From: Halichondria panicea | Lineage: Eukaryota > Porifera > Demospongiae > Suberitida > Halichondriidae | DNA length: 64,000 bases | Assembly (NCBI RefSeq): GCF_963675165.1 | Contig: NC_087379.1 | Location: 6,241,839-6,305,838, forward strand | Direction: 5' to 3' | Shown: positions 1,168-56,998 of the stretch, piece after piece | How the letters are laid out: each line of letters begins with the position of its first letter | Position numbering within the stretch: the stretch's first letter is position 1 | The notes under the pieces: generated by a model | What the model saw: the letters and a program-made list of their open reading frames with translations, nothing else | Databases searched by the model: none | What the model was told of the DNA's origin: nothing | Translations under genes and position numbers: made by a program

Positions 1168-3043
1168 ATGGCCGAGAGAGTGACGACAAAAGAAGCTCTC
1201 AAGAAACTCGATGCTCAACTCAAATGCTCCCTTTGTCTCGATACTTTCAAGCAGCCGAAACTCTTGCCTTGTTTTCATGTGTTTTGCAAGTCCCCGTGTC
1301 TGGAGAAACTAGTGACTAAGGATGGACGCTCCCTCACTTGTCCCACCTGTCGACACATTGTCCCACTGTCAGAGAGGGGAGTGGCTGGACTGCAATCAGA
1401 CTTCCACATCGACCACTTGTTTGAGATACAAGATGCTTTCAACAAGGCCGAAAACAACAATGATATGAACTGTGGCAGCTGTGAGGATGGCAAAGCCACC
1501 GGATACAGTAACGACTGTGGGGACTTTTTGTGTGAGGAATGTCAAACTGCTCATAAGAGACTCAAATACACGAGGAATCATTATCTCATTTCGCTCAACG
1601 CACTCAAAGCTCAAATGACGGGCCTGGTTCCCCCCCAAAAATCCGCCCCCAATTGCCCCGAACACTCGAAGAATGACCTCAAGATATACTGCGATACTTG
1701 CTCCACTCTCATTTGCATGGACTGCACCATTCATCTACACAAAGACCACAACTATGACCTGGTGGCTGATGTGCTGACCAAGCACAAGGAAGAACTTGTC
1801 TCCAGTCTCAAACCAGTCAAAAACTATTCAGCCAGAGACAAAGGCTGACATGGAACTGACCACAAAAGGAAAAGAACCTCTTCAACAAGCTTGCCGAAGT
1901 TTCCTAGAGGTTGATCACAGTGGATCATTCAGCTTAGAGAACAGCCACACGACAGGAGATGGTCTGAAAGGTGCTATAACTGGAGAAACAAAAACTGTAT
2001 CGTTTCAAGCAAAAACCAAGAGTAACAAGAAATTCAACGGCAAAAGCAACCTCAAAGCTGAACTTGTGGATATCGTGAGCAAAGACATATTGAAATGTGA
2101 AGTGATCGATCAACAACACGGTCAACACAAGATCAACTATCGCCCAATGAAACGAGGAAAGCATGAACTACACATCACTGTCAATGGGAACGCAGTACGA
2201 GGCAGTCCATTCCCAATAGCTGTAGCCCCATCACCACAGAGCTTCATCAAGCCTTCCCGAGTTGTACGAGGTGTGAACAAGCCACGAGGCACTGTCTCCA
2301 ACAGTAAGGGAGAGTTAGTTGTTGTTGAAGGTGGTGGAGCTACTATCTCTGTATTGACACCAGAGGGTGAGAAGATACGAACATTCGGAAAGCTGAATAC
2401 TGCATATGGAGTGACTGTGGACAAAGACGACAACATCTATGTAGTGGAGAACAGCAATCATCGTGTGAATAAATTCTCATCCGACAGAGAGTTTGTGGCA
2501 GCTGTTGGTAGTGCAGGCAATGGTAACCTTCAGTTTAGTAGCCCAGCTGGTATTTATTATAACAGAAAAGACAACAACCTGTATGTGCCTGATCAGCTTA
2601 ACCACAGAATACAAGTGTTCTCTACTGAACTGAAGTTTGTGCGGTGTTTTGGTACACAAGGCAATGGGAACGGACAATTACAGCAACCACTGTATGCATC
2701 ATTTGATAGTGCCGACAACCTCTATGTGATTGACTTTGCTAACCATCGAGTACAAGTCTTCACTGCTGAAGGTCAATTCTTGAGAGCCTTCTCACAAAAA
2801 GCCAACGGTCAGAAGCTGAGTTATCCCTATGCCATAGCCATCGACAGTAGTGACACAGTGTACGTCAGTGAGAATGGACCACATCATGTGAGTGTGTTCA
2901 CATCTCAGGGAGCCTACATCACCACATTTGGTGGGCCAGGAACGGAAGAGGGACAGTTTAATGGAATTTATGGACTCTCTATTGATCGCAATGACTCTGT
3001 TGTTGTATCCGATCGTAACAACAGGCGACTACAGACATTCTAA
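1168..3043 (+). pseudogene. TRIM-filamin-NHL copy 1, frameshifted by internal deletion
   Basis: The reading frame from ATG 1168 codes for the RING (C20, C23, C35, H37, C40, C44, C58, C61), both B-boxes and the start of the coiled coil, then ends at 1848 after a foreign tail (NYSARDKG). A second frame, open to 3043, resumes at TIQPETKADME and codes for the complete filamin and NHL domains. Compared with the copy at 45791, 353 bp covering the whole coiled coil are missing between two TCAAA pentamers, one of which is retained; 353 is not a multiple of three. The filamin and proximal NHL region is almost identical to the 45791 copy, indicating recent duplication or gene conversion. A 226-residue RING/B-box protein without coiled coil could still be made. 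Confidence 0.9.
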
Positions 3044-5780: not shown

Positions 5781-5820
5781 ATATTGCCCAGTAAAAAACC
5801 TTCGATAAATTCTCAAAGCC

Positions 5821-8025
5821 ATGGCCGAGAGAGTGACGACAAAAGAATCTCTCAAGAAACTCGATGCTCAACTCGAATGCTCCCTTTGTCTCGACACTTT
5901 CAAGCAGCCGAAACTCTTACCTTGTTTTCATGTGTTTTGCAAGTCCCCGTGTCTGGAGAAACTAGTGACCAACGATGGACGCTCCCTCACTTGTCCCACT
6001 TGTCGACACATTGTCCCACTGTCAGAGAGGGGAGTGGCTGGACTGCGATCAGACTTCCACATCGACCACTTGTTTGAGATACAAGATGCTTTCAACAAAG
6101 CTGAAGACGATAATGATACAAACTGTGGCAGCTGTGAGGATGGTAAAGCCACTGGATACTGTAACGACTGTGGGGACTTTTTATGTGACGAATGTCAAAC
6201 TGCTCACAAGAGACTCAAATACACGAGGAATCATAAACTAATTTCGCTGGATGAACTCAAAGCTCAAGTGACTAGCCTGGTTCCCCCCAAGAAAGCCGTC
6301 CCCCATTGCTCCAAACACTCGGAGAATGCCCTCAAGATATACTGTGATACTTGCTCCACTCTCATTTGCATGGACTGCACCATTCGTCTCCACAAAGACC
6401 ACAACTACGACCTGGTGGCTGATGTGCTGACCAAGCACAAAGAAGAACTTGTCTCCAGTCTCAAACCAGTCAAAGAGAAGCTGGACAGTGTACAACGAGC
6501 TCTGAAGGACTTTGACACAAGAGCCAAGGCAATCCACGATCAGAAGGCCGCAATTGAAGCCAACATCCACAAGGAAATTGACGAACAACATCGACTGTTA
6601 GATCAACGAAGGGCAGAGCTTGTAGGAGAGCTAGAGATGCTGACTCAACAGAAACTGAAGGATCTGGCGGCACAAAGGGACCAAGTGGAGATCACTCAGG
6701 TGAAACTGACCAGCTGTCTGGAGTACGCTGAGGGGGTCTCAAAACAGGCGAAAACTTCCGTTCTCAAGAGAGTCAAACAAATTTCTGCTGAATTCGATCG
6801 AAACACAATTCAGCCAGAAACAAAGGCTGACATAGAACTGATCACAAAAGGAAAAGAACCTCTCCAACAAGCTTGCCGAAGTTTCTTAGAGGTTGATCAC
6901 AGTGGATCATTTAGCTTAGAGAACAGCCACACGACAGGAGATGGTCTGAAAGGTGCTACAACTGGAGAAACAAAAACTGTATCGTTTCGAGCAAAAACCA
7001 AGAGTAACAGAAATGTCAAACGCAAACTCGACCTCAAAGCTGAACTCGTGCGTTTGGAGAGCAAAGATATATTGAAATGTGAAGTGATCGATCAACAACA
7101 TGGCCAACACAAGATCAACTATCGCCCATTGAACCGAGGAAAGCATGAACTACACATCACTGTCAATGAGGACGCAGTACGAGGCAGTCCATTCCCAATA
7201 GCTGTAGCCCCATCACCACAGAGCTTCGTCAAGCCTTCCCGAGTTGTACGAGGTGTGAACAAACCACGAGGCACTGTCTTCAACAGTAAGGGACAGTTGG
7301 TTGTTGTTGAAGGTAGTGGAGCTACTGTCTCTGTATTGACACCAGAGGGTCAGAAGATACAAACGTTTGGACAGCTGAATAATGCATTTGGAGTGACTGT
7401 GGACAAAGACGACAACATCTATGTAGTGGAGTGTGGCAATCATCGTGTGAATAAGTTCTCATCCGACGGAGAGTTTGTGGCAGCTGTTGGTAGTCAAGGC
7501 AGCGGTAACCTTCAGTTTAGTAGCCCATTTGATATTTGTTATAACAGAAGAGACAACAACTTGTATATGCCTGATCAGGGTAACCACAGAATACAAGTGC
7601 TTTCCACTGATCTGAAGTTCGTACGATGTTTCGGTACACCTGGCAATGGGAACGGACAATTACAGCAACCACTATATGCAACATTTGATAGTGCCAACAA
7701 CCTCTATGTGACTGATCGTGGTAACCATCGAGTACAAGTCTTCACTGCTGAAGGTCATTTCCTGAGAACCTTCTCACAAAAAGCCAAAGGTAAAAAGCTG
7801 AACTCACTCTGGGCCATAGCCATCGATAGCAATGACACAGTGTACGTCAGTGAGAATGGACCGCATCATGTGAGTGTGTTCATATCTCAGGGAGCCTACA
7901 TCACCACGTTTGGTGGACCAGGAACGAAAGAGGGACAGTTTAATGGCATTTACGGACTCTCTATTAATCGCAATGACTCAGTTGTTGTGTCCGATCTGAA
8001 CAATGGGCGACTGCAGATATTCTAG
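5821..8025 (+). CDS. TRIM-NHL protein (RING, B-boxes, coiled coil, filamin, NHL), copy 2
   Basis: Intact 734-residue single-exon gene, TRIM2/3/71 type. A C3HC4 RING lies at about residues 20-61 (CSLC, CFHVFC, CPTC), a first B-box-like Cys/His cluster at 100-145, and a second B-box at 160-200 (CDTCSTLICMDC). A coiled coil covers 205-320, a filamin-type immunoglobulin fold about 350-460 (ending GSPFPIAVAPS), and a six-bladed NHL propeller 470-734. Family knowledge: the RING is a ubiquitin-ligase module, the coiled coil dimerises, and NHL propellers bind RNA or protein. The ATG is preceded by CAAAGCC as in all copies. The coiled-coil end is about 11 residues shorter than in other copies (EGVSKQAKTSV). 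It lies between the QYMQNP and TKVD exons of an OPA1-like remnant. Substrate unknown. Confidence 0.93.
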   Translation: MAERVTTKESLKKLDAQLECSLCLDTFKQPKLLPCFHVFCKSPCLEKLVTNDGRSLTCPTCRHIVPLSERGVAGLRSDFHIDHLFEIQDAFNKAEDDNDTNCGSCEDGKATGYCNDCGDFLCDECQTAHKRLKYTRNHKLISLDELKAQVTSLVPPKKAVPHCSKHSENALKIYCDTCSTLICMDCTIRLHKDHNYDLVADVLTKHKEELVSSLKPVKEKLDSVQRALKDFDTRAKAIHDQKAAIEANIHKEIDEQHRLLDQRRAELVGELEMLTQQKLKDLAAQRDQVEITQVKLTSCLEYAEGVSKQAKTSVLKRVKQISAEFDRNTIQPETKADIELITKGKEPLQQACRSFLEVDHSGSFSLENSHTTGDGLKGATTGETKTVSFRAKTKSNRNVKRKLDLKAELVRLESKDILKCEVIDQQHGQHKINYRPLNRGKHELHITVNEDAVRGSPFPIAVAPSPQSFVKPSRVVRGVNKPRGTVFNSKGQLVVVEGSGATVSVLTPEGQKIQTFGQLNNAFGVTVDKDDNIYVVECGNHRVNKFSSDGEFVAAVGSQGSGNLQFSSPFDICYNRRDNNLYMPDQGNHRIQVLSTDLKFVRCFGTPGNGNGQLQQPLYATFDSANNLYVTDRGNHRVQVFTAEGHFLRTFSQKAKGKKLNSLWAIAIDSNDTVYVSENGPHHVSVFISQGAYITTFGGPGTKEGQFNGIYGLSINRNDSVVVSDLNNGRLQIF

Positions 8026-13765: not shown

Positions 13766-13802
13766 TAAGAAGCCTTACAAGACTTGATCATATCCCAAAG
13801 CC

Positions 13803-16025
13803 ATGGCCGAGAGAGTGACTACAAAAGAAGCTCTCAAGAAACTCGATGCTCAACTCGAATGCTCCCTTTGTCTCGACACTTTCAAGCAGCCGAAACTCTT
13901 GCCTTGTTTTCATGTGTTTTGCAAGTCCCCGTGTCTGGAGAAACTAGTGACCATGGATGGACGCTCCCTCACTTGTCCCACCTGTCGACACATTGTCCCA
14001 CTGTCAGAGAGGGGAGTGGCTGGACTGCAATCAGACTTCCACATCGACCACTTGTTTGAGATACAAGATGCTTTCAACAAGGCCGATGACAACAATGATA
14101 CAAACTGTGGCAGCTGTGAGGATGGCAAAGCCACCGGATACTGTAACGACTGTGGGGACTTTTTGTGTGACAGGTGTCAAACTGCTCACAAATTTGTTAA
14201 ATACACTCGTCAACATAAACTGATTTCGCTGGATGAACTGAAAGCTCAAGTGACTAGCCTGGTTCCCCCCAAGAAAGCCGTCCCTCATTGCCCCAAACAC
14301 TCGAGGAATGACCTCAAGATATACTGCGATACCTGCTCCACTGTCATTTGCATGGACTGCACCATTCGACTCCACAAAGACCACAACTACGACCTGGTGG
14401 CTGATGTGCTGACCAAGCATAAGGAAGAACTTGTCTCCAGTCTCAAACCAGTCAAAGAGAAGCTGGACAGTGTACAACGAGCTCTGAAGGACTTTGACAC
14501 AAGAGCCAAGGAAATCCACGATCAGAAGGCCACGATTGAAGCCAACATCCACAAGGAAATTGACAAACAACATCGACTGTTGGACCAACGAAGGGCAGAG
14601 CTTGTGGGAGAGCTAGAGATGCTGACTCAGCAGAAGCTGAAGGATCTGGCGGCACAGAGGGACCAAGTGGAGATCACTCAGGTGAAACTGACCAGCTGTC
14701 TAGAGTACGCTGAGGGGGGTCTCAAAACAGGCACAGATGGTGATGTACTCGAAATGAAATCTTCCGTTGTTAAGAGAGTCGAACAGATCACTACCGAATT
14801 AGAGTCAAACACTATTCAACCAGAGACAAAGGCTGACATGGAACTGATCACTAAAGGAAAAGAACCTCTCCAACAAGCTTGTCGAGATTTCCTAGAGATT
14901 TATCACAGTGGATCATTCAGCTTAGAGAACAGCCACACGACAGGAGATGGTCTGAAATGTGCTACAAATGGAGAAACAAAAACTGTATCCTTTCAAGCAA
15001 AAACCAAGAGTAACAGAAATATCAAACGCAAACTCGACCTCAAAGCTGAACTCGTGCGTTTGGAAAGCAAAGATACATTGAAATGTGAAGTGATCGAGCA
15101 ACAACATGGCCAACACAAAATCAACTATCGCCCTATGAAACAAGGAAAGCATGAACTACACATCACTGTCAATGGGGACGCAGTACGAGGCAGTCTATTC
15201 CCAATAGCTGTAGTCCCATCACCACAGAGCTTCGTCAAGCCTTCCCAAGTTGTACGAGGTGTGAACACCCCACGAGGCACTGTCTCCAACAGTAAGGGAC
15301 AGTTAGTTGTTGTTGAAGGAGCTACTGTCTCTGTATTGACACCAGAGGGTGAGAAGATACAAACGTTTGGACAGCTGAATAATGCATTTGGAGTGACCTT
15401 GGACAAAGACGACAACATCTATGTAGTGGAGTGTAGCAATCATTGTGTGAATAAGTTCTCATCCGACGGAGAGTTTGTGGCAGCTGTTGGTAGTGAAGGC
15501 AGTGGTAACCTTCTGTTTCAGGACCCTTACGGTATATTTTATAACAAAAGGGACAACAACCTGTATGTGCCTGATTGCAACAACCACAGAATACAAGTGC
15601 TCTCTACTGAACTGAAGTTCGTACGATGTTTCGGTATCCCTGGCAATGGGAACGGTCAATTACAGCAACCATTGCATGCAACGTTTGATAGTGCCAACAA
15701 CCTCTATGTGATTGATGATGGTAACCATCGAGTACAGGTCTTTACTGCTGAAGGTTAATTCCTGAGAACCTTCTCACAAAAAGCCAACGGTCAGAAGCTG
15801 AACCTTCCTTGGACCATAGCCATCGACAGTAGTGACACAGTGTACGTCAGTGAGAATGGACCGAATCATGTGAGTGTGTTCACATCTCATGGAGCCTACA
15901 TCACCACGTTTGGTGGACCTGGAACGAAAGAGGGACGGTTTAATGCCATTTATGGACTCTCTATTGATCGCAATGACTCTGTTGTTATATCCGATCAAGG
16001 CAACGAGCGACTGCACATATTCTAA
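13803..16025 (+). pseudogene. TRIM-NHL copy 3 with in-frame nonsense codon
   Basis: The frame is open from ATG 13803 to a TAA at 15756-15758 (651 residues), then continues in the same frame to TAA 16023-16025, giving 740 codons of similarity. All other copies have CAA (FTAEGQF) at this point, so one C-to-T change truncates the protein inside NHL blade 4-5. RING, B-boxes, coiled coil and filamin are complete. The filamin patch RNIKRKLDLKAELVRLESK groups with copies 2 and 7, while the coiled-coil end (GGLKTGTDGDVLEMK) is of the longer type. A truncated propeller would be unstable; readthrough is possible but unsupported. Confidence 0.88.
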
Positions 16026-19103: not shown

Positions 19104-19157
19104 ATATTGCCCATGGCCAGTAAAAAACCTTACAGCATTTGATAAATTCCCAATGCC

Positions 19158-21377
19158 ATGGCTGAGAGATTGACTACGAAAGAAGCTCTCAAGAAACTCG
19201 ATGCTCAACTCGAATGCTCCCTTTGTCTTGACACTTTCAAGCAACCGAAACTCTTGCCTTGTTTTCACGTATTTTGCAAGTCCCCGTGTCTGGAGAAACT
19301 AGTGACCAAGGATGGACGCTCCCTCACTTGCCCCATCTGTCGACACATTGTCCCACTGTCAGAGAGGGGAGTGGCTGGACTGCAATCAGACTTCCACATT
19401 GACCACTTGTTTGAGATACAAGATGCTTTCAACAAGGCCGAAGACGACAATGATACAAATTGTGGCAACTGTGAGAATGGCAGAGCCACCGGGTACTGTA
19501 ACGACTGTGGGGACTTTTTGTGTGATGAGTGTCAAGATGCTCATAAGAAAATGAAATATCTACGGAGTCATAAACTAATTTCACTGGATGAACTTAAACT
19601 TCAAGTGACTAACCTGGTTCCCCCCAAGAAGGCCGTCCCCCATTGCTCCAAACACTCAGGGAATGCTCTCAAGATATACTGCGATACCTGCTCCACTGTC
19701 ATTTGCACGGACTGCACCATTCGTCTCCACAAACACCACAACTACGACCTGGTGGCTGATGTGCTGACCAAGCACAAGGAAGAACTTGTCTCCAGTCTCA
19801 AACCAGTCAAAGATAAGCTGGACAGTGTACAACGAGCTCTGAAGGACTTTGACACAAGAGCCAAGGCAATCCATGATCAGAGGGCCACGATTGAAGCCAA
19901 CATCCACGAGGAGATTGACGAACAACATCGACTATTGGACCATCGAAGGGCAGAGCTTGTGGGAGAGCTAGAGATGCTGACTCAGCAGAAGCTGAAGGAT
20001 CTAGCGGCACAAAGGGACCAAGTGGAGATGTCTCAGGTGAAACTGACCAGCTGTCTGGAGTACACTGAGGGTGGTCTCAAAACAGGCACAGATGGTGAAG
20101 TACTCGAAATGAAATCTTCCGTTGTTAAGAGAGTGGAACATATTTCTACTCAATTAGAATTAATCGCTATTCAGCCAGAGACAAAGGCTGACATGGAACT
20201 GACCACTAAAGGAAAAGAACCTCTCAAACAAGCTTGTAGAACATTTCTAGAGATTGATCACGGTGGATCATTCAGCTTAGAGAACAGCCGCACGACAGGA
20301 GATGGCCTAAAAGGTGCTACAACTGGAGAAACAAAAACAGTATCCTTTCAAGCGAACAAGAAATTTAAAGGAAACTTCGACCTCCAAGCTGAACTTGTGC
20401 ATATCGAAAGCAAAAAAATACTGAAATGTGAAGTGATCGAGCAACAACATGGCCAACACAAGATCAACTATCGCCCTATGAAACGAGGAAAGCATGAACT
20501 ACACATCACTGTCAATGGGGACGCAGTACGAGGCAGTCCATTCCCAATAGCTGTAGCCCCATCACCACAGAGCTTCATCAAGCCTTCCCGAGTTGTACGA
20601 GGTGTGAACACCCCACGAGGCACTGTCTTTAACAGTAAGGGACAGTTGATTGTTGTTGAAGGTAGTGGAGCTACTGTCTCTGTATTGACACCAGAGGGTG
20701 AGAAGATACAAACGTTTGGACAGCTGAGTAATGCATATGGAGTAACTGTAGACAAAGACGATAATATCTATGTAGTGGAGAATGGGCATCATCGTGTGAA
20801 TAAGTTCTCATCCGACGGAGAGTTTGTGGCAGCTGTTGGTAGTCAAGGCAATGGTAACCTTCAGTTTCTGCACCCTATTGGTATATGTTATAACACAAGA
20901 GACAACAACCTGTATGTGGCTGATAACGTCAACCACAGAATGCAAGTGCTTTCCACTGATCTGAAGCTTGTACGATGTTTCGGTACACAAGGCAATGATA
21001 ACGAGCAATTACAAAACCCGTGGTATCCAACATTTGATAGTGCCAATAACCTCTATGTGACTGAGTACACAAACCATCGAGTACAAGTGTTCACTGCTGA
21101 AGGTCAATTCCTGAGAGCCTTTTCACAAAAATCCAACGGTTCGAAGCTGAGTCATCCCCAAGCCATTGCCATCGATAGCAGTGACACGGTGTACGTCAGT
21201 GAGGATGGATCGCATCATGTGAGTGTGTTCACATCTCAGGGAGCCTACATCACCACGTTTGGTGGGCGAGGAACAAAAAAGGGACAGTTTGATCTAATTT
21301 ACGGACTCTCTATTGATCGCAATGACTCTATTGTTGTGTCCGATCAAGACAACGGGCGACTTCAGATATTTAAATGA
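19158..21377 (+). CDS. TRIM-NHL protein, copy 4
   Basis: Intact, 739 residues: RING 20-61 (CSLC...CPIC), B-boxes about 100-200, coiled coil 205-331, filamin about 353-461, NHL 474-739. The filamin domain has lost the TKSN tetrapeptide found in most copies (FQANKKFKGN). NHL blade dipeptides are NG-H, NV and YT, and blade 3 begins FLHPIGICYN, shared only with copy 5. One extra residue (K) follows the final LQIF. It lies after a QYMQNP exon remnant and before a RYNLEAEW exon that is split by a hAT-like MITE. Confidence 0.92.
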   Translation: MAERLTTKEALKKLDAQLECSLCLDTFKQPKLLPCFHVFCKSPCLEKLVTKDGRSLTCPICRHIVPLSERGVAGLQSDFHIDHLFEIQDAFNKAEDDNDTNCGNCENGRATGYCNDCGDFLCDECQDAHKKMKYLRSHKLISLDELKLQVTNLVPPKKAVPHCSKHSGNALKIYCDTCSTVICTDCTIRLHKHHNYDLVADVLTKHKEELVSSLKPVKDKLDSVQRALKDFDTRAKAIHDQRATIEANIHEEIDEQHRLLDHRRAELVGELEMLTQQKLKDLAAQRDQVEMSQVKLTSCLEYTEGGLKTGTDGEVLEMKSSVVKRVEHISTQLELIAIQPETKADMELTTKGKEPLKQACRTFLEIDHGGSFSLENSRTTGDGLKGATTGETKTVSFQANKKFKGNFDLQAELVHIESKKILKCEVIEQQHGQHKINYRPMKRGKHELHITVNGDAVRGSPFPIAVAPSPQSFIKPSRVVRGVNTPRGTVFNSKGQLIVVEGSGATVSVLTPEGEKIQTFGQLSNAYGVTVDKDDNIYVVENGHHRVNKFSSDGEFVAAVGSQGNGNLQFLHPIGICYNTRDNNLYVADNVNHRMQVLSTDLKLVRCFGTQGNDNEQLQNPWYPTFDSANNLYVTEYTNHRVQVFTAEGQFLRAFSQKSNGSKLSHPQAIAIDSSDTVYVSEDGSHHVSVFTSQGAYITTFGGRGTKKGQFDLIYGLSIDRNDSIVVSDQDNGRLQIFK

Positions 21378-32768: not shown

Positions 32769-32933
32769 TATCACTATTTTGTACCACATGGACCATTATG
32801 CGCATGCGTAGTAGAAATAATGGGATAGAAATCCAATAATGAGATAGAAATCCAAGAATAAAATCTTAGTCTGGCCACGCCCTCCCATACTTCGTATATG
32901 GTCGGGTGAACTTGCAATGAACAGTTCGTGCAG

Positions 32934-32958
32934 ACACCCCAAGATTTTCTTGGGGTGT
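32934..32958. repeat. Subterminal hairpin of the two-gene transposon
   Basis: ACACCCCAAGA and TCTTGGGGTGT form an 11-bp stem around TTT, 90 bp before the start codon of the putative transposase. Possible regulatory or binding site; inference only. Confidence 0.5.
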
Positions 32959-33047
32959 GAAACCGCTCGTCAAGTGCCTTGTGGGCCGTTGTGGCCTGTT
33001 GTGTAAACTGTTACGTAAGCTATTGCATCACGAAAAAGTAGCTAGAT

Positions 33048-36000
33048 ATGGGCCTCTACTGCTGTTTGTGTGCGAATGAGTCTCTGGACAACCGAAGGCG
33101 AAAGAACCTCAATGGTCATAGCTGTTCTGAAGCAAGAGAAGTACTTGTGCAGCTCCTTCCAGTACCTCTGCATTGCATCCCTGAAACTAGTGCTAGTGAC
33201 AGTATATTGTGTCACCAGTGCGAGAAACAACTGAAGAATGTCCATGCTCAACAAGAAAAGCTATGCAAGGTAAAGAAGGAAGCAACAGAGCTAATAAATG
33301 GTCTGCTTTCAAGACATGCAGAAGATAACTTATTACCACCACCGCCAAAAAGAAGTAGAGTTATGCAGGAACCCCCCACACCACCCATTCCATCATCTGT
33401 TTCAGTACCAACCATTCCATCAGTGTCAGCAGCAACCATTCCACCAGTGTCAGCAGCAACCATTCCATCAGCGTCAGCAGCAACCATTCCACCGGTGTAC
33501 GTGTCAGCAGCAACCATTCCACCAGTGTCAGCAGCAACCATTCCATCAGCGTCAGCAGCAATGTCAGCAGCTAATCTACGAACAACTGCAGCCACTCAGC
33601 TACCATCATCTCAGATACCGCAAAGCAGCTCTAATTTGCCCAGTTTTGAGGTACATTGATCACATGTATTTATAAATATCACTGTTTATGTGCACATATT
33701 ATATACATTGTATAATTATAGGTTGTAGTACCCTATTCGCAGCAGACCCGAAAGTACATTATCAAAACTCCGACTCGACAGACTGCCATTAGGCGTTTGG
33801 TCCGAAAGAGTTACACCGCTCTTACCTCTGGTACCGTAAACTCTCCTAGGGCAAAGAGGGCATTGTTATCACAGTTGGCACTGACAATCAAAAATGAGAT
33901 GAAGAAGATAGGTACAAATAAACATGATTCAATTTTAAGGGACAACAATGAAGCAGTGAAACGATTCAGCTGGGAGACAGTGAGATTGGAGCTTTATAAG
34001 ATGGTTCCAACTCTCATGTCACTGCTTTCGCTGCTGATACCAAACCCAGAAAACCGTATACCCCTTATTTGCACTATTGCATCCCAATTGTTGAAGTGCA
34101 GGCATCAACACCTATCGTTAGTCCAGAGGGTTGTTTCCGTCATGTTGTATGGACATGGAACTCACAAGCAGGTATTAATTAATTGTTATCATAACTCAAT
34201 AATATTAACACATATTGTTTAATTCCAAGGTGTTCAGCAATCTGCAGCCACTGAACTTATGCCTCTCCCACAAAGGATCGCTGAACATTGTGAGAGGTAT
34301 TTCTCAAGACTATGACGTTGAAGTACAAGAGTGGCGGGACAAGTTGATTGAGAGAATCCCCAAACCCACTGCGGATGTATCGGTAAAATTTGTATCATTT
34401 AGTAATTTTAGCGTGTATAGAATACTCATATCACAGTATCGATCGCTGACACTACCATCACAAACCGCTACTGATGCGGACTACTCCCTGACAGAACAGG
34501 ATGTACCTCTGAGCGAGCTTAACGCAAGCTTCTCATCTGATGACTATAGTCATCCAGATTTTAGTCCGATTACATCTGTTGAGGATAATGAGGTGGATGA
34601 GAACGTAGCAGATGATCTGGAGACCAGTTTAATCGTTGATGATCCTCAGGTAGGTTAGGATAAATACTGTAGACCCATCTAAAACTGACTTCTTCAGAAT
34701 CAAAGTGACCAGTCCCAGCCAACATCAAGTTCCACTTTCACCTGGACTGGATTTAAATTTGTTGGGGACAACCTCGATAAGAGGGTGAAGCCACGGTATC
34801 AAAGAGCAGATATGAGAGGCCATGAAGGGCACTATTTTCATGGTTTTGCTGTTCGTGATAGAATAGATATGTGCAGGTTTTCAGAAGAGAAACCATCTCG
34901 AGTTGAACCACAGGCATCAGAGCTACTAGCGTCCAGTGATGACGTCTCAGCTTACAAAACGGAGTTGGAGATACTAATTTCACGGTAAAGTATCAGCAAA
35001 TAATTATTGCGTTCCATTAGGTTATTTGTATTATAATGCAGAATACTAGTTGAGCACATGGGAGATGTATTTGACAGTGAGAAGAAAAACGTCATGAAAC
35101 ACATCCCCAGTAAATACTCGGAGGAAATGGCATCTTCATCGAAAACGGTATGAAACGTATACAAAGAAAGTGCACTAGTATACATTTACTCATGCATGCA
35201 TATACTAACACTTTGCCTCTCTTAACTTTTTAATTAGGTTCCGCTTAGTGTATTGCTTCTTAATGAGAATAAGCTGGAGGAGATGAGTCAAATTTTGAAG
35301 CACTACATGGAGCTGGTCCCTGCTTTGTCTTGTGAAGGCAAATTTACTCTTGGGAATGGAACCACTATCACGTTCGACGATACAAGGCTATGGGAAGTGC
35401 TTTTTGGAGGAGATCAATTAACGGTAGCCAGAATTCGTGGAACACAGACTCTGAGGGACACTGAGGAAAGCCCTGGAGATCGGCTTGAGGGCATCATCCC
35501 TGTGGTGGAGGACTGGCACACTAGGATGACCTTCTTGAGGGTACAGCAAAGTACAATAATTATATGTGCATGCATGCGCATGCAATAATTATACCCTCGA
35601 ATGTTGCAATAAACTTTTTATGTTTGTTGCCACAGCTTGTCTGGGGGCGTCACTATAGTAAAGAGTCTACCCGGGAAGTAGGCACCATGTATCACCTTCG
35701 AAATCTAATATGCAGGAATGTTGTACCAGCTGACCCGGAGAAGAACATGAATGCAGCCGAAGACTTTATGCTCCTCCTTGTACATTGCCATGTCACAGCA
35801 GCTGCACATCATTTAATGCAAAAGAAAGCTCACAATTTGGCCACGTTAACCAAGGAGATAATCGATACGTTTGTGCATTTTCAAGATGTTTCTCAGATTG
35901 GTCAAACAACACCCGATTCTAATGATAAGGTGCATCTATACGCCACAGAGCTTCTCTCGTTGGGTCTTCTTTGGTACGGGTTTCACGATGCTGTAAGGGA

Positions 36001-36553
36001 GGCAGATGGAGACCGCATATTAAGATACTGGAAGCTGCTTTTGGTGCCTTTCAAATCATCAGCGCATAGGAATTATGCCAAAGAAGCAGTGAATATTCTT
36101 TTTCAGTATCATTATGTATTTTCTGAGAGGCAAAAGATGCAGTTGCTGTGGAGCAGGTGTGTTAACACAAGAGGTTACAAAGGTGCTAACATACCATGTG
36201 ATTTATACATGGAGCATCTCAATCGAAGATTGAAGACAGTTGTTCGTGGCATGGGCTCCAATGTGTCACCAGATAAAATACAGAGAGCTGGGAAAACACT
36301 ACAGCCGATACAAACTGTGTGCGAAGCATTTGAGAAAGAGACTACCAATGAAATACGAAGTGATAGGCATCCCTATCCATCTTTTGAAAAAGATTTTAAG
36401 CTAATTTTTGATACACTGATCAAAAACAAAGTGTTTAGCAATGTTCCTGGCCGAAACCATCCCAGTTATAAATTCAAGAAAAGTATTTTCAAACTGAACT
36501 CCAGAAATGAACTTATAAAAAAAGTTAACACAACCTTAAAGAAGCTAGTCTAG
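33048..36553 (+). CDS. DUF6589-type putative transposase, eight exons
   Basis: Exons: 33048-33650, 33722-34171, 34230-34382, 34437-34649, 34698-34984, 35042-35147, 35238-35540, 35636-36553. All introns are GT...AG, and the exons join in frame to 1,010 residues. The 54-bp third intron has no stop and might be retained. The N-terminus has a CxxC...CxxC pair (CCLC, CHQC), a probable zinc-binding fold like ZAD. Then follows a low-complexity tract of TIPPVSAA repeats from a 24-bp minisatellite (33410-33560). The C-terminal half has GDNLDKRVKPR, HYFHGFAVRDRID, FGGDQLTVARIRG and VEDWHTRM, the hallmarks I associate with DUF6589, which looks like an RNase-H-fold transposase; catalytic Asp positions are my inference. 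The intact frame suggests recent activity. Confidence 0.85.
33405..33572 (+). repeat. 24-bp coding minisatellite in exon 1 of the putative transposase
   Basis: CCATTCCACCAGTGTCAGCA-type units are repeated about seven times, in phase, coding for TIPPVSAA/TIPSASAA. One unit has a 6-bp insertion (VYVSAA). Probably a flexible linker between the zinc-binding N-terminus and the main domain. Confidence 0.85.
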
Positions 36554-36584
36554 AATAATACTTTGCATGTTGTGTGTAATGTAA

Positions 36585-37914
36585 TCATGAGTTCGTTGCA
36601 ATAAAGCCACAAATGTCACAACAACTACTACCTTCTACGTTAATACTGTCTTCTTTGTAATATAAAAAATCTTTAAAAAGTAAACGACGTCTACACATGC
36701 TACTGTTTAAAACATAGTCTTTCATTTTCTTACTAGCATATCTTCCTCCTTTTCCTGCAAATAGTATTGCTTGTGAGGGTTGTCCATCCCTGCCACTACG
36801 CCCAGTTTCTTGTACATACTCCTCAACTGATGAAGGCATACCCCAATGAACAATGGTTCGTATGTCTGGGCAGTCAATACCCATTCCGAAAGCTGTTGTG
36901 GCAATCACTAAACGTAATGTGCTGTCAACTGAGGTGAAAGAATTCAACACATCTTCTTTTTTGCTAACAGAAAGCACTCTAGTAAACATGTCAACTAGTC
37001 GATGACCTTTAACATTGGGACATCCAGGTGGATCAGTTATATAGGATCCGAGACTGCACTTAATCACCATATATAAAGATGAGCAATCGGCATAACTTCG
37101 TACGTAAATCACTGTTTTAGGGTATGACTTCCGTTTTTCTCGAATTTCATCAGCAATTTTTTCACCAAGGCTTTCAACGTCAATCTTAGAGTGAACCTCA
37201 TAAGAAATATTGTCTCGGAAAGGAGGGGAGGCAATTAAAGTAGGATCGTCCATACATAACCTTCTACTGACAATGTAAAATGTTTCTGTTGTAGAGGTAG
37301 CAGTAAGTGCGTGAACACCGACATTGTCTGGAATGAGGCTCCTTAAATCTCCAATCTCCGAAAAAGCGACTCGAAAATCATCTCCCCAGGTTTTAACGCA
37401 GTGGGCTTCATCAACTACTACTGCAACAAGATTCTTTATATACGGTGGTGACAGAAGCATATTTCGAAAAATACCCTTCGCTAATATGCTCTCTGGGGAG
37501 ATGAACACCAACTGAGCTTCTCCTTTCAGTACTCTGTTAATAGCACTACGGTCTGTCTGAGCTTCTCCAACGTATTCCACTGTCAATCCTCCAGCTGCAT
37601 ACTTTTTTTGTTGATCCATCATCAGCGAAGTGAGGGGACTAATACAAAGTACAATGCTTCCAGATGTTCCTGCAAAACAGAAAAATATAGGTACACTCAT
37701 ACAGCAATTTTAGTTCACCTTTCAATTGGTCAAAGGCCATAGGTAATGCAGCAAAGATTACTGACTTTCCATAGCCAGTTGGCAGTGACACAAATGTGTC
37801 CTTTCCTCCAATGATCGAATACATTGCTTTCATTTGCTCTGGCTTTAAATAATGGATCCCAATTGCTCTAGCACTCTCAATTATCACATCTTGCATCTTC
37901 ATGTGTCTTTCCAT
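36585..37914 (-). CDS. RecQ-like ATP-dependent DNA helicase of the transposon, two exons
   Basis: Minus-strand exons 37914-37719 and 37669-36585, separated by a 49-bp GT...AG intron, give 426 residues. Superfamily II motifs follow in order: LPTGYGKS (I, ATP binding), CISPLTSLMMDQ (Ia), VDEAHCVKTWGDDFR (II, DEAH then the RecQ aromatic-rich loop), LTATST (III), TVIYVRS (IV), IATTAFGMGIDCPDIR (V) and YVQETGRSGRDG (VI). A C-terminal Cys cluster (CRRRLLFKDF...CCDIC) matches the RecQ zinc-binding region. WH and HRDC domains are absent, so it is shorter than host RecQ proteins. It ends 31 bp from the end of the putative transposase gene. Likely role: DNA unwinding during transposition (inference). 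Confidence 0.9.
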
Positions 37915-38139
37915 AGTCTTGCACTATAATTATGTACTAAATCTTGAAAGTCATAAACTAAATGTTCCACACTGATTTTTGGCCACACCTAGTACCTGTA
38001 CCACACTACATGTATTTGGTTAACACCCAATTATCACTACTAGGTTATCTAACCGCGGCACTTAGGGCCTGACACGAGTGGTGATAGTGAAGTTCACCAG
38101 ACTCTTGCAAAGAGGCTGGAAATCGAGACTATAAAATCT

Positions 38140-38389
38140 GATGCGGGCGGTGGACCAGAAACCGGAGTATCACTTGGAGTGGCCTAACACAAAGCCTCCT
38201 TTCTTCAGCTCAGCTCTTCACTTCAGGTGTGCTATTTATGCTAGACATATGCACTGACTGGATATACCATAGCCATAGGCCTCCATGCTTTTGCACTTGG
38301 AAGTACATCTACAGTATATAATAGTATAAACATGGCTGTCATTTTATCACATAGATTCTGAATAAAATAATAATGTTTATTAACCCGAG
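38140..38389. other. Remnant flank of the two-gene transposon
   Basis: ACCAGAAACCGGAGTATCACTTGGAGTGGCC (positions 38152-38185) is an inverted match to 29386-29417; both are probably pieces of an older MITE family. No gene. Confidence 0.45.
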
Positions 38390-39764: not shown

Positions 39765-39848
39765 TGTACATAGAATCTGCAATAATTTTTGCCGATGTTC
39801 CCTCACAGATATCGCCCAGTAAAAAACCTTCGATAAATTCTCAAAGCC

Positions 39849-42092
39849 ATGGCCGAGAGAGTGACGACAAAAGAAGCTCTCAAGAAACTCGATGCTCAAC
39901 TCGAATGCTCCCTTTGTCTCGACACTTTCAAGCAGCCGAAACTCTTGCCTTGTTTTCACGTATTTTGCAAGTCCCCGTGTCTGGAGAAACTAGTGACCAA
40001 GGATGGACCCTCCCTCACTTGTCCCACCTGTCGACACATTGTCCCACTGTCAGAGAGGGGAGTGGCTGGACTGCAATCAGACTTCCACATCGACCACTTG
40101 TTTGAGATACAAGATTCTTTCAACAAGGCCAAGGATGAGAATGCTACAAATTGTGGCAACTGTGAGAATGGCAAAGCCACCGGATACTGTAACGATTGTG
40201 GGGACTTTTTGTGTGACAAGTGTCAAGCTGCTCACAAGATAGTTAAATACACACGTGAACATAAACTAATTTCGTTAGATGAACTCAAAGCTCAAGTGAC
40301 TAGCCTGGTTCCCCCAAAGAAAGCCGTCCCCCATTGCCCCAAACACTCGGAGAATTCCCTCAAGATATACTGTGATACCTGCTCCACTCTCATTTGCACG
40401 GACTGCACCATTCGTCTCCACAAAGATCACAACTACGACCTGGTGGCTGATGTGCTGACCAAGCACAAAGAAGAACTTGTCTCCAGTCTCAAACCAGTCA
40501 AAGAGAAGCTGGACAGTGTAAAACGAGCTCTGAAGGACTTTGACGCAAGAGCCAAGGCAATCCACGATCAGAGGGCCACGATTGAAGCTAACATCCACAA
40601 GGAGATTGACGAACAACATCAACTGTTGGACCAACGAAGGGCAGAGGTTGTGGAAGAGCTAGAGATGCTGACTCAGCAGAAGCTGAAGGATCTGGCGGCA
40701 CAGAAGGACCAAGTGGAGATCACTCAAGTGAAACTGACCAGCTGTCTGGAGTACGCTAAAGGGGGTCTCAAAACAGGCACAGACGGTGAAGTACTCGAAA
40801 TAAAATCTTCCTTTGTTAAGAGAGTTAAACAAATCACTGCAGAATTCGAATCATATGCTATTCAGCCAGAGACAAAGGCTGACATGGAACTGATCACTGA
40901 AGGAAAAGAACCTCTCAAACAAGCTTACCAAGATTTCCTAGAAGTTGATCACAATCGATCATTCAGCTTAGAGAACAGCCACATGACAGGAGATTGTCTG
41001 AAAGATGCTACCTCTGAAGAAACAAAAACTTTATCCTATCAAGCAATGACCAAAAATAACAAGAAATTCAAAGACAAACTTAACCTCAAAGCTGAACTTG
41101 TGCATATCGAAAGCAAAGGCATATTGAAATGTGAAGTGATCAAGGAACCACATGGCCAACACAAGATCAACTATCGCCCTGTGAAACGAGGAAAGCATGA
41201 ACTACACATCACTGTCAATGGGGACGCAGTACGAGACAATCCATTCCCAATAGCTGTAGCCCCATCACCACAGAGCTTCGGCAAGCCTTCCCGAGTTGTA
41301 CGAGGTGTGAAAAAACCACAAGGCACTGTCTTCAACAGTAAGGGACAGTTGGTTGTTGTTGGAGGTGATGGAACTACTGTCTCTGTATTGACACCAGAGG
41401 GTGAGAAGATACGAACGTTTGGACAGCTGAATAATGCAAGAGGAGTGACTGTCGACAAAGACGACAACATGTATGTTGTGGAGACCGGCAATCATCGTGT
41501 GAAAAAGTTCTCATCTGACGGAGAATTTATGGCAGCTGTTGGTAGTCACGGCAGTGGTAACCTTAAGTTTCTGCACCCTATTGGTATCTGTTATAGCAGA
41601 AGAGACAACAACCTGTATGTGGCTGATCGGAGTAACCACAGAATACAAGTGCTCTCTACTGAACTTAATTTCGTTCAATGTTTTGGCGCACAAGGCAATG
41701 GGAACAAACAATTATATAATCCACGGCATGCAACATTTGATAGTGCCAACAACCTTTATGTGACTGATAACGGTAACCATCGAGTACAAGTCTTCACTGC
41801 TGAAGGTCAATTCCTGAGAACCTTCTCACAAAAAGCCAACGGTAGGAAGCTGAGTTGTCCCTATGCCATAGCCATCGACAGCAGTGACACAGTGTACGTC
41901 AGTGAGAATGGATCACATCATGGACCACATCATGTGAGCGTGTTCACATCTCAGGGAGCCTACATCACCACGTTTGGTGGACTTGGAACGAAAGAGGAAC
42001 AGTTTAATAACATTTATGGACTTTCGATTGATAGCAATGATTCTGTTGTTGTGTCCGATCAAGGCAACTGGCGACTGCAGATATTCAAATGA
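39849..42092 (+). CDS. TRIM-NHL protein, copy 5
   Basis: Intact and the longest copy, 747 residues. Domain order as in the others. Differences: RING ligand spacing kept but DGPS for DGRS; B-box linker KDENATNCGNCENG; the most diverged filamin domain (MTKNNKKFKDKLNLKAELV). A small duplication in the last blade gives NGSHHGPHHVS. NHL blade dipeptides are TG, RS and NG, and blade 3 begins FLHPIGICYS like copy 4. It ends with K after LQIF. Its presumed promoter is 14 kb upstream beyond nested transposons; the 501-bp MITE at 39264 could instead supply or disrupt regulation. Confidence 0.92.
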   Translation: MAERVTTKEALKKLDAQLECSLCLDTFKQPKLLPCFHVFCKSPCLEKLVTKDGPSLTCPTCRHIVPLSERGVAGLQSDFHIDHLFEIQDSFNKAKDENATNCGNCENGKATGYCNDCGDFLCDKCQAAHKIVKYTREHKLISLDELKAQVTSLVPPKKAVPHCPKHSENSLKIYCDTCSTLICTDCTIRLHKDHNYDLVADVLTKHKEELVSSLKPVKEKLDSVKRALKDFDARAKAIHDQRATIEANIHKEIDEQHQLLDQRRAEVVEELEMLTQQKLKDLAAQKDQVEITQVKLTSCLEYAKGGLKTGTDGEVLEIKSSFVKRVKQITAEFESYAIQPETKADMELITEGKEPLKQAYQDFLEVDHNRSFSLENSHMTGDCLKDATSEETKTLSYQAMTKNNKKFKDKLNLKAELVHIESKGILKCEVIKEPHGQHKINYRPVKRGKHELHITVNGDAVRDNPFPIAVAPSPQSFGKPSRVVRGVKKPQGTVFNSKGQLVVVGGDGTTVSVLTPEGEKIRTFGQLNNARGVTVDKDDNMYVVETGNHRVKKFSSDGEFMAAVGSHGSGNLKFLHPIGICYSRRDNNLYVADRSNHRIQVLSTELNFVQCFGAQGNGNKQLYNPRHATFDSANNLYVTDNGNHRVQVFTAEGQFLRTFSQKANGRKLSCPYAIAIDSSDTVYVSENGSHHGPHHVSVFTSQGAYITTFGGLGTKEEQFNNIYGLSIDSNDSVVVSDQGNWRLQIFK

Positions 42093-45790: not shown

Positions 45791-48027
45791 ATGGCCGAGA
45801 GAGTGACTACAAAAGACGCTCTCAAGAAACTTGATGCTCAACTCGCTCCCTTTGTCTCGACACTTTCAAGCAGCCGAAACTCTTGCCTTGTTTTCATGTG
45901 TTTTGCAAGTCCCCGTGTCTGGAGAAACTAGTGACCAAGGATGGACGCTCCCTAACTTGTCCCACCTGTCGACACATTGTCCCACTGTCAGAGAGGGGAG
46001 TGGCTGGACTGCAATCAGACTTCCACATCGACCACTTGTTTGAGATACAAGATGCTTTCAACAAAGCTGAAGACGACAATGATACAAACTGTGGCAGCTG
46101 TGAGGATGGCAAAGCCACTGGATACTGTAACGACTGTAACGACTGTGGGGACTTTTTGTGTGAGGAATGTCAAACTGCTCATAAGAGACTCAAATACACG
46201 AGGAATCATTATCTCATTTCGCTCAACGCACTCAAAGCTCAAATGACGGGCCTGGTTCCCCCCCAAAAAGCCACCCCCAATTGCCCTAAACACTCGAAGA
46301 ATGACCTCAAAATATACTGCGATACTTGCTCCACTCTCATTTGCATGGACTGCACCATTCGTCTACACAAAGACCATAACTACGACCTGGTGGCTGATGT
46401 GCTGACCAAGCACAAGGAAGAACTTGTCTCCAGTCTCAAACCAGTCAAAGAGAAGCTGGACAGTGTACAACGAGCTCTGAAGGACTTTGACACAAGAGCC
46501 AAGGCAATTCACGATCAGAGGACCACGATTGAAGCCAACATCCACAAGGAGATTGGTGAACAACATCGACTGTTGGATCAACGAAGGGCAGAGCTTGTAG
46601 GAGAGCTAGAGATGCTGACTCAGCAAAAGCTGAAGGATCTAGCGGCACAGAGGGACCAAGTGGAGATCACTCAGGTGAAACTGACCAGCTGTCTGGAGTA
46701 CGCTGAGGGGGGTCTCAAAACAGGCACAGACGGTGAAATACTCAAAATGAAATTTTCCGTTGTTAAGAGAGTCGAACAGATCACTACCGAATTCGAATCA
46801 AAAACTATTCAGCCAGAAACAAAGGCTGACATGGAACTGACCACAAAAGGAAAAGAACCTCTCCAACAAGCTTGCCGAGATTTCCTAGAGATTGAACAGC
46901 GTGGATCATTCAGTTTAGAGAACAGCCACACGACAGGAGATGGTCTAAAAGGTGCTACAATTGGAGAAATAAAAACTGTGTCCTTTCAACTAATGACCAA
47001 GAAAAACAAGAAATTCAACGGCAAAAGCAACCTCAAAGCTGAACTTGTGTATATCGTGAGCAAAGACATATTGAAATGTGAAGTGATCGATCAACAACAC
47101 GGTCAACACAAGATCAACTATCGCCCAATGAAACGAGGAAAGCATGAACTACACATCACTGTCAATGGGAACGCAGTACGAGGCAGTCCATTCCCAATAG
47201 CTGTAGCCCCATCACCACAGAGCTTCATCAAGCCTTCCCGAGTTGTACGAGGTGTGAACAAGCCACGAGGCACTGTCTCCAACAGTAAGGGAGAGTTGGT
47301 TGTTGTTGAAGGTGGTGGAGCTACTATCTCTGTATTGACACCAGAGGGTGAGAAGATACGAACGTTCGGAAAGCTGAATAATGCATATGGAGTGACTGTG
47401 GACAAAGACGACAACATCTATGTAATGGAAGTTAACAATCATCGTGTGAATAAGTTCTCATCCGACGGAGAGTTTGTGGCAGCTGGTGGTAGTCTAGGCA
47501 GTGGTAACCTTCAGTTTAGTGGCCCACTTGGTATTTGTTACAACAGAAGAGACAACAACCTGTATGTGCCTGATCAGAGTAACAACAGAATACAAGTGCT
47601 CTCTACTGAACTGAATTTCGTACGATGTTTCGGTACACCTGGCAAAGGGAACGGACAATTACAAAGCCCATTATATGCAGCATTTGATAGTGCCAATAAC
47701 CTCTATGTGACTGAGTACACTAACCATCGAGTACAAGTCTTCACTGCTGAAGGTCAATTCCTGAGAACCTTCTCACAAAAAGCCAACGGTCATCAGAAGC
47801 TGAGCTCACCCTATGCCATAGCCATCGACAGCAGTGACACAGTGTACGTTAGTGAGAATGGACTGTATCATGTGAATGTGTTCACATCTCAAGGAGCATA
47901 CATCACCACGTTTGGCGGACCAGGAACGAAAGAAGGACAGTTTAATAACATTTACGGACTCTCTATTGATCGCAATGACTCCGTTGTTGTATCCGATGAA
48001 GGCAACGAGCGACTACAGATATTCTAA
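45791..48027 (+). pseudogene. TRIM-NHL copy 6, frameshifted in the RING
   Basis: The normal ATG at 45791 reads MAERVTTKDALKKLDAQL, then a 4-bp deletion (CTCGCTCCC where other copies have CTCGAATGCTCCC) shifts the frame, removes the first RING Cys pair and stops at about residue 46. The remaining 714 codons to 48027 are open with no in-frame ATG until after the first B-box. A 9-bp tandem duplication gives CNDCNDCGDFLC in B-box 1, adding a Cys. Filamin and early NHL are almost identical to copy 1. Blade dipeptides VN, QS (NNR) and YT; one residue inserted in NGHQKL. A single sequencing error could also explain the 4-bp loss, so it should be re-read before being called dead. Confidence 0.85.
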
Positions 48028-54730: not shown

Positions 54731-54778
54731 ATATCGCCCAGTAACAAACCTTACAGCATTCGATAAATTCCCAAAGCC

Positions 54779-56998
54779 ATGGCCGAGAGAGTGACGACAA
54801 AAGAAGCTCTCAAGAAACTCGATGCTCAACTTGAATGCTCCCTTTGTCTCGACACTTTCAAGCAACCGAAACTCTTGCCTTGTTTTCACGTATTTTGCAA
54901 GTCCCCATGTCTGGAGAAACTAGTGACCAAGGATGGATGCTCCCTCACTTGTCCCACCTGTCGACACATCGTCCCACTATCGGAGAGGGGAGTGGCTGGA
55001 CTGCAATCAGACTTTCACATCGACCACTTGTTTGAGATACAAGATGCTTTCAACAAAGCTGAAGACGACAATGATACAAACTGTGGCAGCTGTGAGGATG
55101 GCAAAGCCACTGGGTACTGTAACGATTGTGGGGACTTTTTATGTGACGAATGTCAAACTGCTCACAAGAGACTCAAATACACAAGGAATCATAAACTAAT
55201 TTCGCTGGATGAACTCAAAGCTCAAGTGACTAGCCTGGTTCCCCCCAAGAAAGCCGTCCCCCATTGCTCCAAACATTCGGAGAATGCCCTCAAGATATAC
55301 TGTGATACTTGCTCCACTCTCATTTGCATGGACTGCACCATTCGTCTCCACAAAGACCACAACTACGACCTGGTGGCTGATGTGCTGACCAAGCACAAAG
55401 AAGAACTTCTCTCCAGTCTCAATCCAGTCAAAGAGAAGCTAGACAGTGTACAACGAGCTCTGAAGGACTTTGACACAAGAGCCAAGGCAATCCACAATCA
55501 GAGGGCCGCGATTGAAGCCAACATCCACAAGGAGATTGACGAACAACATCGATTGTTAGATCAACGAAGGGCAGTGCTTGTAGGAAAGCTAGAGATGCTG
55601 ACTCAGCAGAAACTGAAGGATCTGGCGGCACAAAGGGACCAAGTGGAGATCACTCAGGTGAAACTGACCAGCTGTCTGGAGTACGCTGAGGGGGGTCTCA
55701 AAACAGGCACAAACGGTGAAGTACTCGAAATGAAAACTTCCGTTCTCAAGAGAGTCAAACAAATTTCTACTGAATTCGATCGAAACACAATTCAGCCAGA
55801 AACAAAGGCTGACATAGAAATGATCACAAAAGGAAAAGAACCTCTCCAACAAGCTTGCCGAGATTTCCTAGAGATTGATCACAGTGGATCATTCAGCTTA
55901 GAGAATAACCACATAACAGGAGATGGTCTGAAAGGTGCTACAACTGGAGAAACAAAAACTGTATCCTTTCAAGCAAAAACCAGAAATGTCAAACGCAAAC
56001 TCGACCTCAAAGCTGAACTCGTGCGTTTGGAGAGCAAAGATATATTGAAATGTGAAGTGATCGATCAACAACACGGCCAACACAAGATCAACTATCGCCC
56101 AATGAAACGAGGAAAGCATGAACTACACATCACAGTCAATGAGGACGCAGTACGAGGCAGTCCATTCCCAATAGCTGTAGCCCCATCACCACAGAGCTTC
56201 GTCAAGCCTTCCCGAGTTGTACGAGGTGTGAACAGCCCACGAGGCACTGTCTACAACAGTAAGGGACAGTTGGTTGTTGTTGAAAGTGGTGGAGCTACTG
56301 TCTCTGTATTGACACCAGAGGGTGAGAAGATACGAACGTTTGGGCAGCTGAATAATGCATTTGGAGTGACTGTGGACAAAGACGACCAAATTTATGTAGT
56401 GGAGTATGCCAATCATCGTGTGAATAAGTTCTCGTTCGACGGAGAGTTTGTGGCAGCCGTTGGTAGTTCAGGCAGTGGTAACCTTCAGTTTAGTAACCCA
56501 TTTGGTATCTGTTATAACAGAAAAGACAACAACCTGTATGTTCCTGATCAGTGTAACCACAGAATACAAGTGCTCTCTACTGAACTGAAGTTCGTACGAT
56601 GTTTCGGCACACCTGGCAATGGGAACGGACATTTAAAGCAACCACTGTATGCTACATTTGATAGTGCCAACAACCTCTATGTGACTGAGTTTGCTAACAA
56701 TCGAGTACAAGTCTTCACTGCCGAAGGTCAATTCCTGAGAACCTTCTCACAAAAAGCCAATGGTCAGAAGTTGAGCTCACCCTATGCCATAGCCATCGAC
56801 AGCAGTGACACAGTCTACGTCAGTGAGAATGGACCGAATCATGTGAGTGTGTTCACATCTCAGGGAGCCTACATCACCACGTTTGGTGGGTTAGGAACGA
56901 AAGAGGGACAGTTTAATGGCATTTATGGATTCGCTATTGATTGCAATGACTCTATTGCTGTATCTGATATGAACAACGGGCGACTGCAGATATTTTAG
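54779..56998 (+). CDS. TRIM-NHL protein, copy 7
   Basis: Intact, 739 residues, closest to copy 2 in the B-box (KRLKYTRNHKLISLDELK) and filamin regions (RNVKRKLDLKAELVRLESKD), but with the longer coiled-coil end (GGLKTGTNGEVLEMK). RING has DGCS for DGRS, giving an extra Cys next to the last zinc pair. Blade dipeptides YA, QC and FA (NNR). The propeller ends MNNGRLQIF. Upstream it is preceded by the CATAGATA element; downstream lie a broken RYNLEAEW exon scrap and two MITEs. Confidence 0.92.
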   Translation: MAERVTTKEALKKLDAQLECSLCLDTFKQPKLLPCFHVFCKSPCLEKLVTKDGCSLTCPTCRHIVPLSERGVAGLQSDFHIDHLFEIQDAFNKAEDDNDTNCGSCEDGKATGYCNDCGDFLCDECQTAHKRLKYTRNHKLISLDELKAQVTSLVPPKKAVPHCSKHSENALKIYCDTCSTLICMDCTIRLHKDHNYDLVADVLTKHKEELLSSLNPVKEKLDSVQRALKDFDTRAKAIHNQRAAIEANIHKEIDEQHRLLDQRRAVLVGKLEMLTQQKLKDLAAQRDQVEITQVKLTSCLEYAEGGLKTGTNGEVLEMKTSVLKRVKQISTEFDRNTIQPETKADIEMITKGKEPLQQACRDFLEIDHSGSFSLENNHITGDGLKGATTGETKTVSFQAKTRNVKRKLDLKAELVRLESKDILKCEVIDQQHGQHKINYRPMKRGKHELHITVNEDAVRGSPFPIAVAPSPQSFVKPSRVVRGVNSPRGTVYNSKGQLVVVESGGATVSVLTPEGEKIRTFGQLNNAFGVTVDKDDQIYVVEYANHRVNKFSFDGEFVAAVGSSGSGNLQFSNPFGICYNRKDNNLYVPDQCNHRIQVLSTELKFVRCFGTPGNGNGHLKQPLYATFDSANNLYVTEFANNRVQVFTAEGQFLRTFSQKANGQKLSSPYAIAIDSSDTVYVSENGPNHVSVFTSQGAYITTFGGLGTKEGQFNGIYGFAIDCNDSIAVSDMNNGRLQIF

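Follow-up and report, generated by a model that had tools for sequence, protein, structure and literature searches.

The window analysed in this study is a stretch of 64,000 nucleotides from the genome of the sponge Halichondria panicea (contig NC_087379.1, here C3:6241839-6305838, + strand), and it contains a real, well delimited and recently active DNA transposon of 5,265 bp (32867..38131, + strand). The element carries a gene for a DUF6589 protein, predicted to be a DDE transposase (gene A), and a gene for a RecQ-type helicase (gene B). It is very likely a recently active cut-and-paste transposon of AcademH type, in which a DUF6589 transposase has a RecQ partner. New here are the function proposed for DUF6589, the co-divergence of the two genes, the inverted repeats near the ends and a set of end-only remnants of 52-59 bp.

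The termini of the element, TAGTCT (32867-32872) and AGACTA (38126-38131), are flanked by an 8-bp target site duplication (TSD), TAAAATCT, at 32859..32866 and 38132..38139, just as a preliminary description, prepared from the sequence alone, had placed them. Searches of the assembly (131 Mb, 39 contigs) revealed the same borders in other copies: all 32 matches to the left end start at query position 1, and 21 of the 24 matches to the right end reach the last base. Both flanks were also joined, with one TAAAATCT kept, and searched in the genome (347 candidates, 40 scored); all 40 scored places span the junction, with 97-99% identity. Two of the empty sites were retrieved and are gap-free, identical at 140 of 141 and 142 of 143 positions, with a single TAAAATCT. 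Since the uninterrupted site with one TAAAATCT is present in repeats elsewhere, the borders of the element are fixed to the base. The insertion site itself (window 32772-32866 and 38132-38185) lies in a high-copy repeat, and the 40 candidates scored share the query start base.

The element inserted as a unit and duplicated its target, by 8 bp in the window and usually by 9 bp. Among 20 two-ended copies of this family (family 1), an exact 9-bp TSD was found in 14 and an exact 8-bp TSD in 3 (the window copy, L019 and L031), while the 9-bp TSD of L029 contains a single mismatch and L020 and L030 have no TSD (2/20). The 8-bp duplication described earlier is therefore exact for the window copy, but it is not the usual form, the family norm being 9 bp. 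Two further families, of 5,349 and 5,413 bp, are present in the same genome (271 and 371 candidate places in the end searches, 40 scored each); they have TAG...CTA ends and terminal inverted repeats of ~69 and ~67 bp, respectively. Four full copies of families 2 and 3 were read, of which three have a 9-bp TSD and one (L074) has none. The short derivatives of family 2 have a TSD of 9 bp (8/10), 10 bp (1/10, inside a CA repeat) or none (1/10), and those of family 3 have 9 bp in every case (8/8). As a control, mismatched flank pairs of the family 2 and 3 short derivatives were compared, and these matched in 0 of 306 cases.

A second full copy, L010, differs from the window element by 9 substitutions over 5,265 aligned bases (99.8% identity) and has both genes open, which agrees with the recent movement guessed at in the preliminary description. 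A further full copy and the empty sites, both proposed there as a check, were found. None of the three refuting conditions named there came true, as the boundaries are shared by other copies, the empty sites have the single target and both genes are multi-copy rather than conserved single-copy genes of the host. All seven introns of gene A in L010 are GT-AG. This gene is 26 codons longer, the extra length probably sitting in the exon-1 tandem repeat, and the length of gene B is unchanged. Another copy, L011, is broken. Ten derivatives of ~1.56-1.62 kb share 98.9-100% mutual identity; most of gene A is gone from them and only parts of the helicase are left, often with stops. The insertion of these non-autonomous derivatives at other sites followed the same pattern as that of the window element. 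As copies in which gene A or B is not intact have also moved, the proteins must be capable of acting in trans, and the derivatives would have moved with proteins supplied in this manner.

The two genes are convergent, spliced and free of stops, as previously claimed. Gene A (33048..36553, + strand; 1,010 aa) is open and has 8 exons (33048-33650, 33722-34171, 34230-34382, 34437-34649, 34698-34984, 35042-35147, 35238-35540 and 35636-36553) separated by GT-AG introns. Within exon 1, a 24-bp tandem repeat (33394..33561, + strand) codes for a linker. An annotated H. panicea protein, the RefSeq isoform P0002, has 100% identity to the gene A product in the part that aligns, and differs from our model in that the 54-bp third intron is kept as coding and the last exon is missing. 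Gene B (36585..37914, - strand; 426 aa) is also open and consists of two exons (37914-37719 and 37669-36585).

Residues 546-950 of the gene A product match PF20231 (DUF6589) with an E-value of 1.9e-51; besides this, a Pfam search at E-values up to 1 gave just a weak match to PB2 (E 0.2). The fold models have a DDE-transposase fold, with the P element transposase, Hermes and RAG1 as the nearest structures (7-12% identity in the aligned core). They are consistent with the DDE-like transposase proposed in the preliminary description, which had suggested such a structural check. A candidate catalytic triad, D497, D663 and E898, is conserved. Gene A is well supported as the transposase gene; its product is predicted to be a DDE enzyme of RNase-H fold in which a helical insertion precedes the last acidic residue, and it would act through D497, D663 and E898 and make 9-bp staggered joins. 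A search of PDB sequences with the DUF6589 profile gave no match at E-values up to 10, and Foldseek comparison of the gene A models with PDB and viral models gave none at 0.001 or better.

One search returned 207 relatives of the DUF6589 protein. In prokaryote contigs (two scans) and IMG/VR viral contigs (one scan), no DUF6589 relative was confirmed. One DUF6589 protein (P0111) is labelled as originating from an uncultured Thioglobus bacterium; this is probably sponge DNA inside a symbiont assembly. At C9:1650827, C14:4797543 and C3:3629098, the DUF6589 matches are weak (54.9 bits) and lie in open frames of 1,617-1,732 aa, which perhaps represent a different, larger kind of protein sharing the DUF6589 domain.

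The gene B product contains the DEAD (1e-19) and Helicase_C (1.1e-12) domains, while the RecQ_Zn_bind match (0.022) is below the cut-off. Among solved sequences, E. coli RecQ is the nearest to it (1oyw; E 1.9e-40) and is closely followed by BLM and WRN, and this bears out its earlier naming as a RecQ-like helicase.

The association of the two genes is not limited to the window. In the genome, 92 DUF6589 exon matches were grouped into 63 loci, and a helicase match lies within 6 kb of 30 of them. The pairs are arranged tail-to-tail at 28 of the 63 loci, with a gap of at most 761 bp in 25 of the 28, and the chance expectation, by simple arithmetic from 79 helicase places in 131 Mb, is ~0.5 pairs. 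This count is based on all 92 DUF6589 rows and on 79 of 140 helicase rows, the other 61 being taken by position as further exons; there were 360 helicase candidates, of which 98 were scored, and some helicases may have been missed. Because the 28 tail-to-tail loci include near-identical copies, chosen pairs were compared instead. Fifteen were selected from 34 and one (L072) was dropped on length, which left 14, including three near-identical couples. Over these pairs, gene A and gene B distances are correlated with r of 0.975 (1 in 10,000 by permutation), and the DUF6589 and helicase trees have 9 of 11 splits in common (no more than 5 in any of 500 label shuffles). Support for the two conflicting splits is 48 and 72 on the helicase side, where the tree is unrooted, versus 89 and 92 on the DUF6589 side. 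The recurring tail-to-tail pairs and the shared splits thus indicate that the transposase and the RecQ helicase form an old, co-inherited partnership.

Several counts weigh against such a partnership. No helicase was seen at 33 of the 63 DUF6589 loci, with 98 of the 360 helicase candidates scored and many of these loci being single-part profile matches. Likewise, 47 of the 79 helicase places are without DUF6589; 15 of them are derivatives of the window family by place or identity, and the other 32 stand apart, with no DUF6589 match within 6 kb. The partnerless helicases include those at C7:3232212, C15:49885, C1:10212124, C6:2763327 and C7:4265200, and many share the match range and one TAA.

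The helicase might alternatively be a passenger, i.e. a host RecQ captured by chance and having no role in transposition, which would suit the DUF6589 loci lacking a helicase and the fact that copies without an intact helicase have moved. The latter are explained by a trans-acting protein from full copies, and chance cargo would not remain paired for so long: the tail-to-tail arrangement recurs at 28 loci, and the trees are congruent with helicases down to ~30% identity. A passenger helicase is hence quite improbable. As co-inheritance extends across families that are only ~30% identical, the helicase is likely a working part, and we infer that the gene B product has been passed on together with the transposase as its functional partner. 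It might open hairpin-prone ends during excision or, as a second option, unwind repair intermediates while the donor gap is refilled.

Concerning the place of the element among known transposons, Kolobok elements have TTAA as their target. The TSDs described here are 8-9 bp long and of varied sequence, and a Kolobok or KolobokH home was rejected on this ground. A DDD/E transposase and a RecQ helicase do occur together in KolobokH, and in Kolobok-1_CCri the RecQ gene lies on the complementary strand, as in the element described here, whereas the excerpts of the source report KolobokH only from fungi (PMC9587614). Given this and the difference in TSD length and sequence, the probability that the element is KolobokH, with a Kolobok transposase and RecQ, is close to nil. 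The union of a transposase with its own helicase, regarded as unusual in the preliminary description, is supported by the fold models and the family data, but it is not unique.

The combination of a helicase and 9-bp duplications is the one reported for AcademH, and so the element was filed as a probable AcademH member, constituting a new family placed by described features (helicase, TSD length). In the accessible portions of the sources, AcademH and AcademX, with TSDs of 9 or 10 bp and of 3 or 4 bp, are linked to helicase and nuclease (PMC10045372), and AcademH is tied to DEAD and Helicase_C domains (PMC10799480). The likeness covers the helicase gene inside the mapped borders (here the RecQ-type gene B) and the 9-bp TSDs that predominate in families 1, 2 and 3, and the reported TSD length agrees with the earlier mention of AcademH as the nearest published idea; the 8-bp TSD of the window copy and of two others among the 20 is a difference. 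The animal host, here a sponge, is a further likeness, as AcademH is reportedly known from animals and fungi, to go by the title of a 2020 paper by Kojima (Mob DNA 11:15). A separate, unnamed superfamily of helicase-bearing transposons, convergent on the TSD length and helicase of AcademH, would fit the fact that DUF6589 is not named in the literature searched, where PF20231 occurs as a bare string under unrelated titles, and that the AcademH likeness is one of described features. We consider it unlikely, since the very combination of helicase and 9-bp TSDs is on record for AcademH (PMC10045372, in excerpt), and in animals as well if the title mentioned is followed.

The other homes considered were rejected. 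For AcademX, the TSD length (8-9 bp here) does not fit 3-4 bp. The nuclease gene of AcademX is XPG; the genome has 9 XPG_I matches, not one of them near a DUF6589 locus, the weak loci included. Six of the 9 are at C13:3752339-3866203, where they occupy frames of 588-601 aa at intervals of ~17-44 kb. A P superfamily home was rejected, as no P-element or THAP Pfam domain was found in gene A at E-values up to 1. The P element is the best structural match, sharing the DDE core and the insertion before the last acidic residue, and differs in the missing Pfam match and in the low identity of the aligned core. Hermes (hAT) and RAG1/Transib, the next-best structural matches, share a DDE RNase-H core with a helical insertion, and differ in that gene A has no hAT or RAG family Pfam match. 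To our knowledge, the P element, Hermes and RAG1/Transib have no helicase. Further points of likeness to the P element are an 8-bp TSD, internally deleted derivatives and possibly a long staggered cut (PMC7776569, in part). KDZ (Zisupton and kin) was rejected because there is no KDZ Pfam match; a TSD of 8 bp is given for Zisupton in the available part of PMC12730594.

Both ends of the element have a common layout, in which the terminus is followed by an imperfect inverted repeat ~12-42 bp in and then by a GGTGAACTT...TCGTG block. The left inverted repeat (32878..32908) has two 5-bp stem parts and is matched in stability by a fraction of 0.15 of 300 shuffles, and for the right one (38097..38119) this fraction is 0.02. 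The inverted subterminal blocks noticed earlier were located at 32905..32933 (GGTGAACTT...TCGTGCAG, + strand) and, in inverted orientation, at 38069..38098 (GGTGAACTT...TCGTGTCAG, - strand); the left one is a probable transposase-binding site. Family 2 has a similar block at the same place (GGTCAAGTT...CTCGT), and no clear counterpart was found at the family 3 ends. Altogether 17 ends, related to one another and therefore not independent, were folded: 12 were matched in stability by <5% of 300 mononucleotide shuffles, and five, including the left end of the window element, were not below 5%. Eight related left ends were also aligned, with 10 pairs counted. In this alignment 93.8% of pair cells are paired, and for two pairs there is a double change, each in a single sequence and both in that of the window copy; 12 of 500 shuffles did as well, and the slid controls had none. 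The result is suggestive, although the repeat may serve as a palindrome bound by protein and not as a hairpin.

Eleven further loci were examined, and five of them (L035, L037, L038, L040 and L042) proved to be end-only copies of 52-59 bp located between TSDs and composed of 30-34 bp of the left and 22-28 bp of the right end; the other six have no matching right end. The TSDs of the five are 9 bp exact (three), 8 bp exact (one) and 9 bp with a mismatch (one). An identical 58-mer is present at three sites, each with a TSD of its own, and a search allowing up to 3 mismatches found no fourth place (the reversed-pattern control found none). The P element makes its second-strand cut 17 bp inside the end, according to the accessible part of PMC7776569, and because this cut lies inside the end, the 52-59-bp remnants could be scars of a similar, longer stagger; possibly, then, they are excision scars of a P-element-like cut.

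An explanation given nearly even chances is that these copies are a micro-MITE (miniature inverted-repeat transposable element), itself mobilised. The presence of the same 58-mer, with no mismatch, at three sites with three different TSDs speaks for it. Against it, two other copies were joined differently (52 and 59 bp), all joins fall within one narrow zone (left 30-34, right 22-28 bp), and an overlap of 2 bp seen by eye at the 58-bp join (TG) can let end joining recur. A tentative joint reading, which we hold to be rather doubtful, combines P-like cutting by the DUF6589 protein, a RecQ helicase partner at the ends and 52-59-bp donor scars. One strand would be cut at the border and the other ~25-34 bp inside, in a conserved inverted repeat that would form a hairpin and lies next to the subterminal binding block, on its outer side. 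The RecQ helicase of the element would separate or resolve the strand-separated, hairpin-prone ends, and the donor would often be closed with 22-34 bp from either end remaining between two target copies. If the remnants are indeed excision scars, a long staggered cut is not peculiar to the P element.

DUF6589 is a Pfam label for unknown function, and the transposase reading would turn many entries for "uncharacterized protein" into transposase genes and names three residues as candidate catalytic ones. Moreover, the element offers a small and apparently intact system on which to test what a helicase does in cut-and-paste transposition.

The transposon is situated inside a tandem array of seven long + strand frames of one gene family (window 1778-3043, 5809-8025, 13788-15758, 19146-21377, 39837-42092, 45835-48027 and 54767-56998), which, judged by eye, looks RING/B-box/filamin/NHL (TRIM-like).

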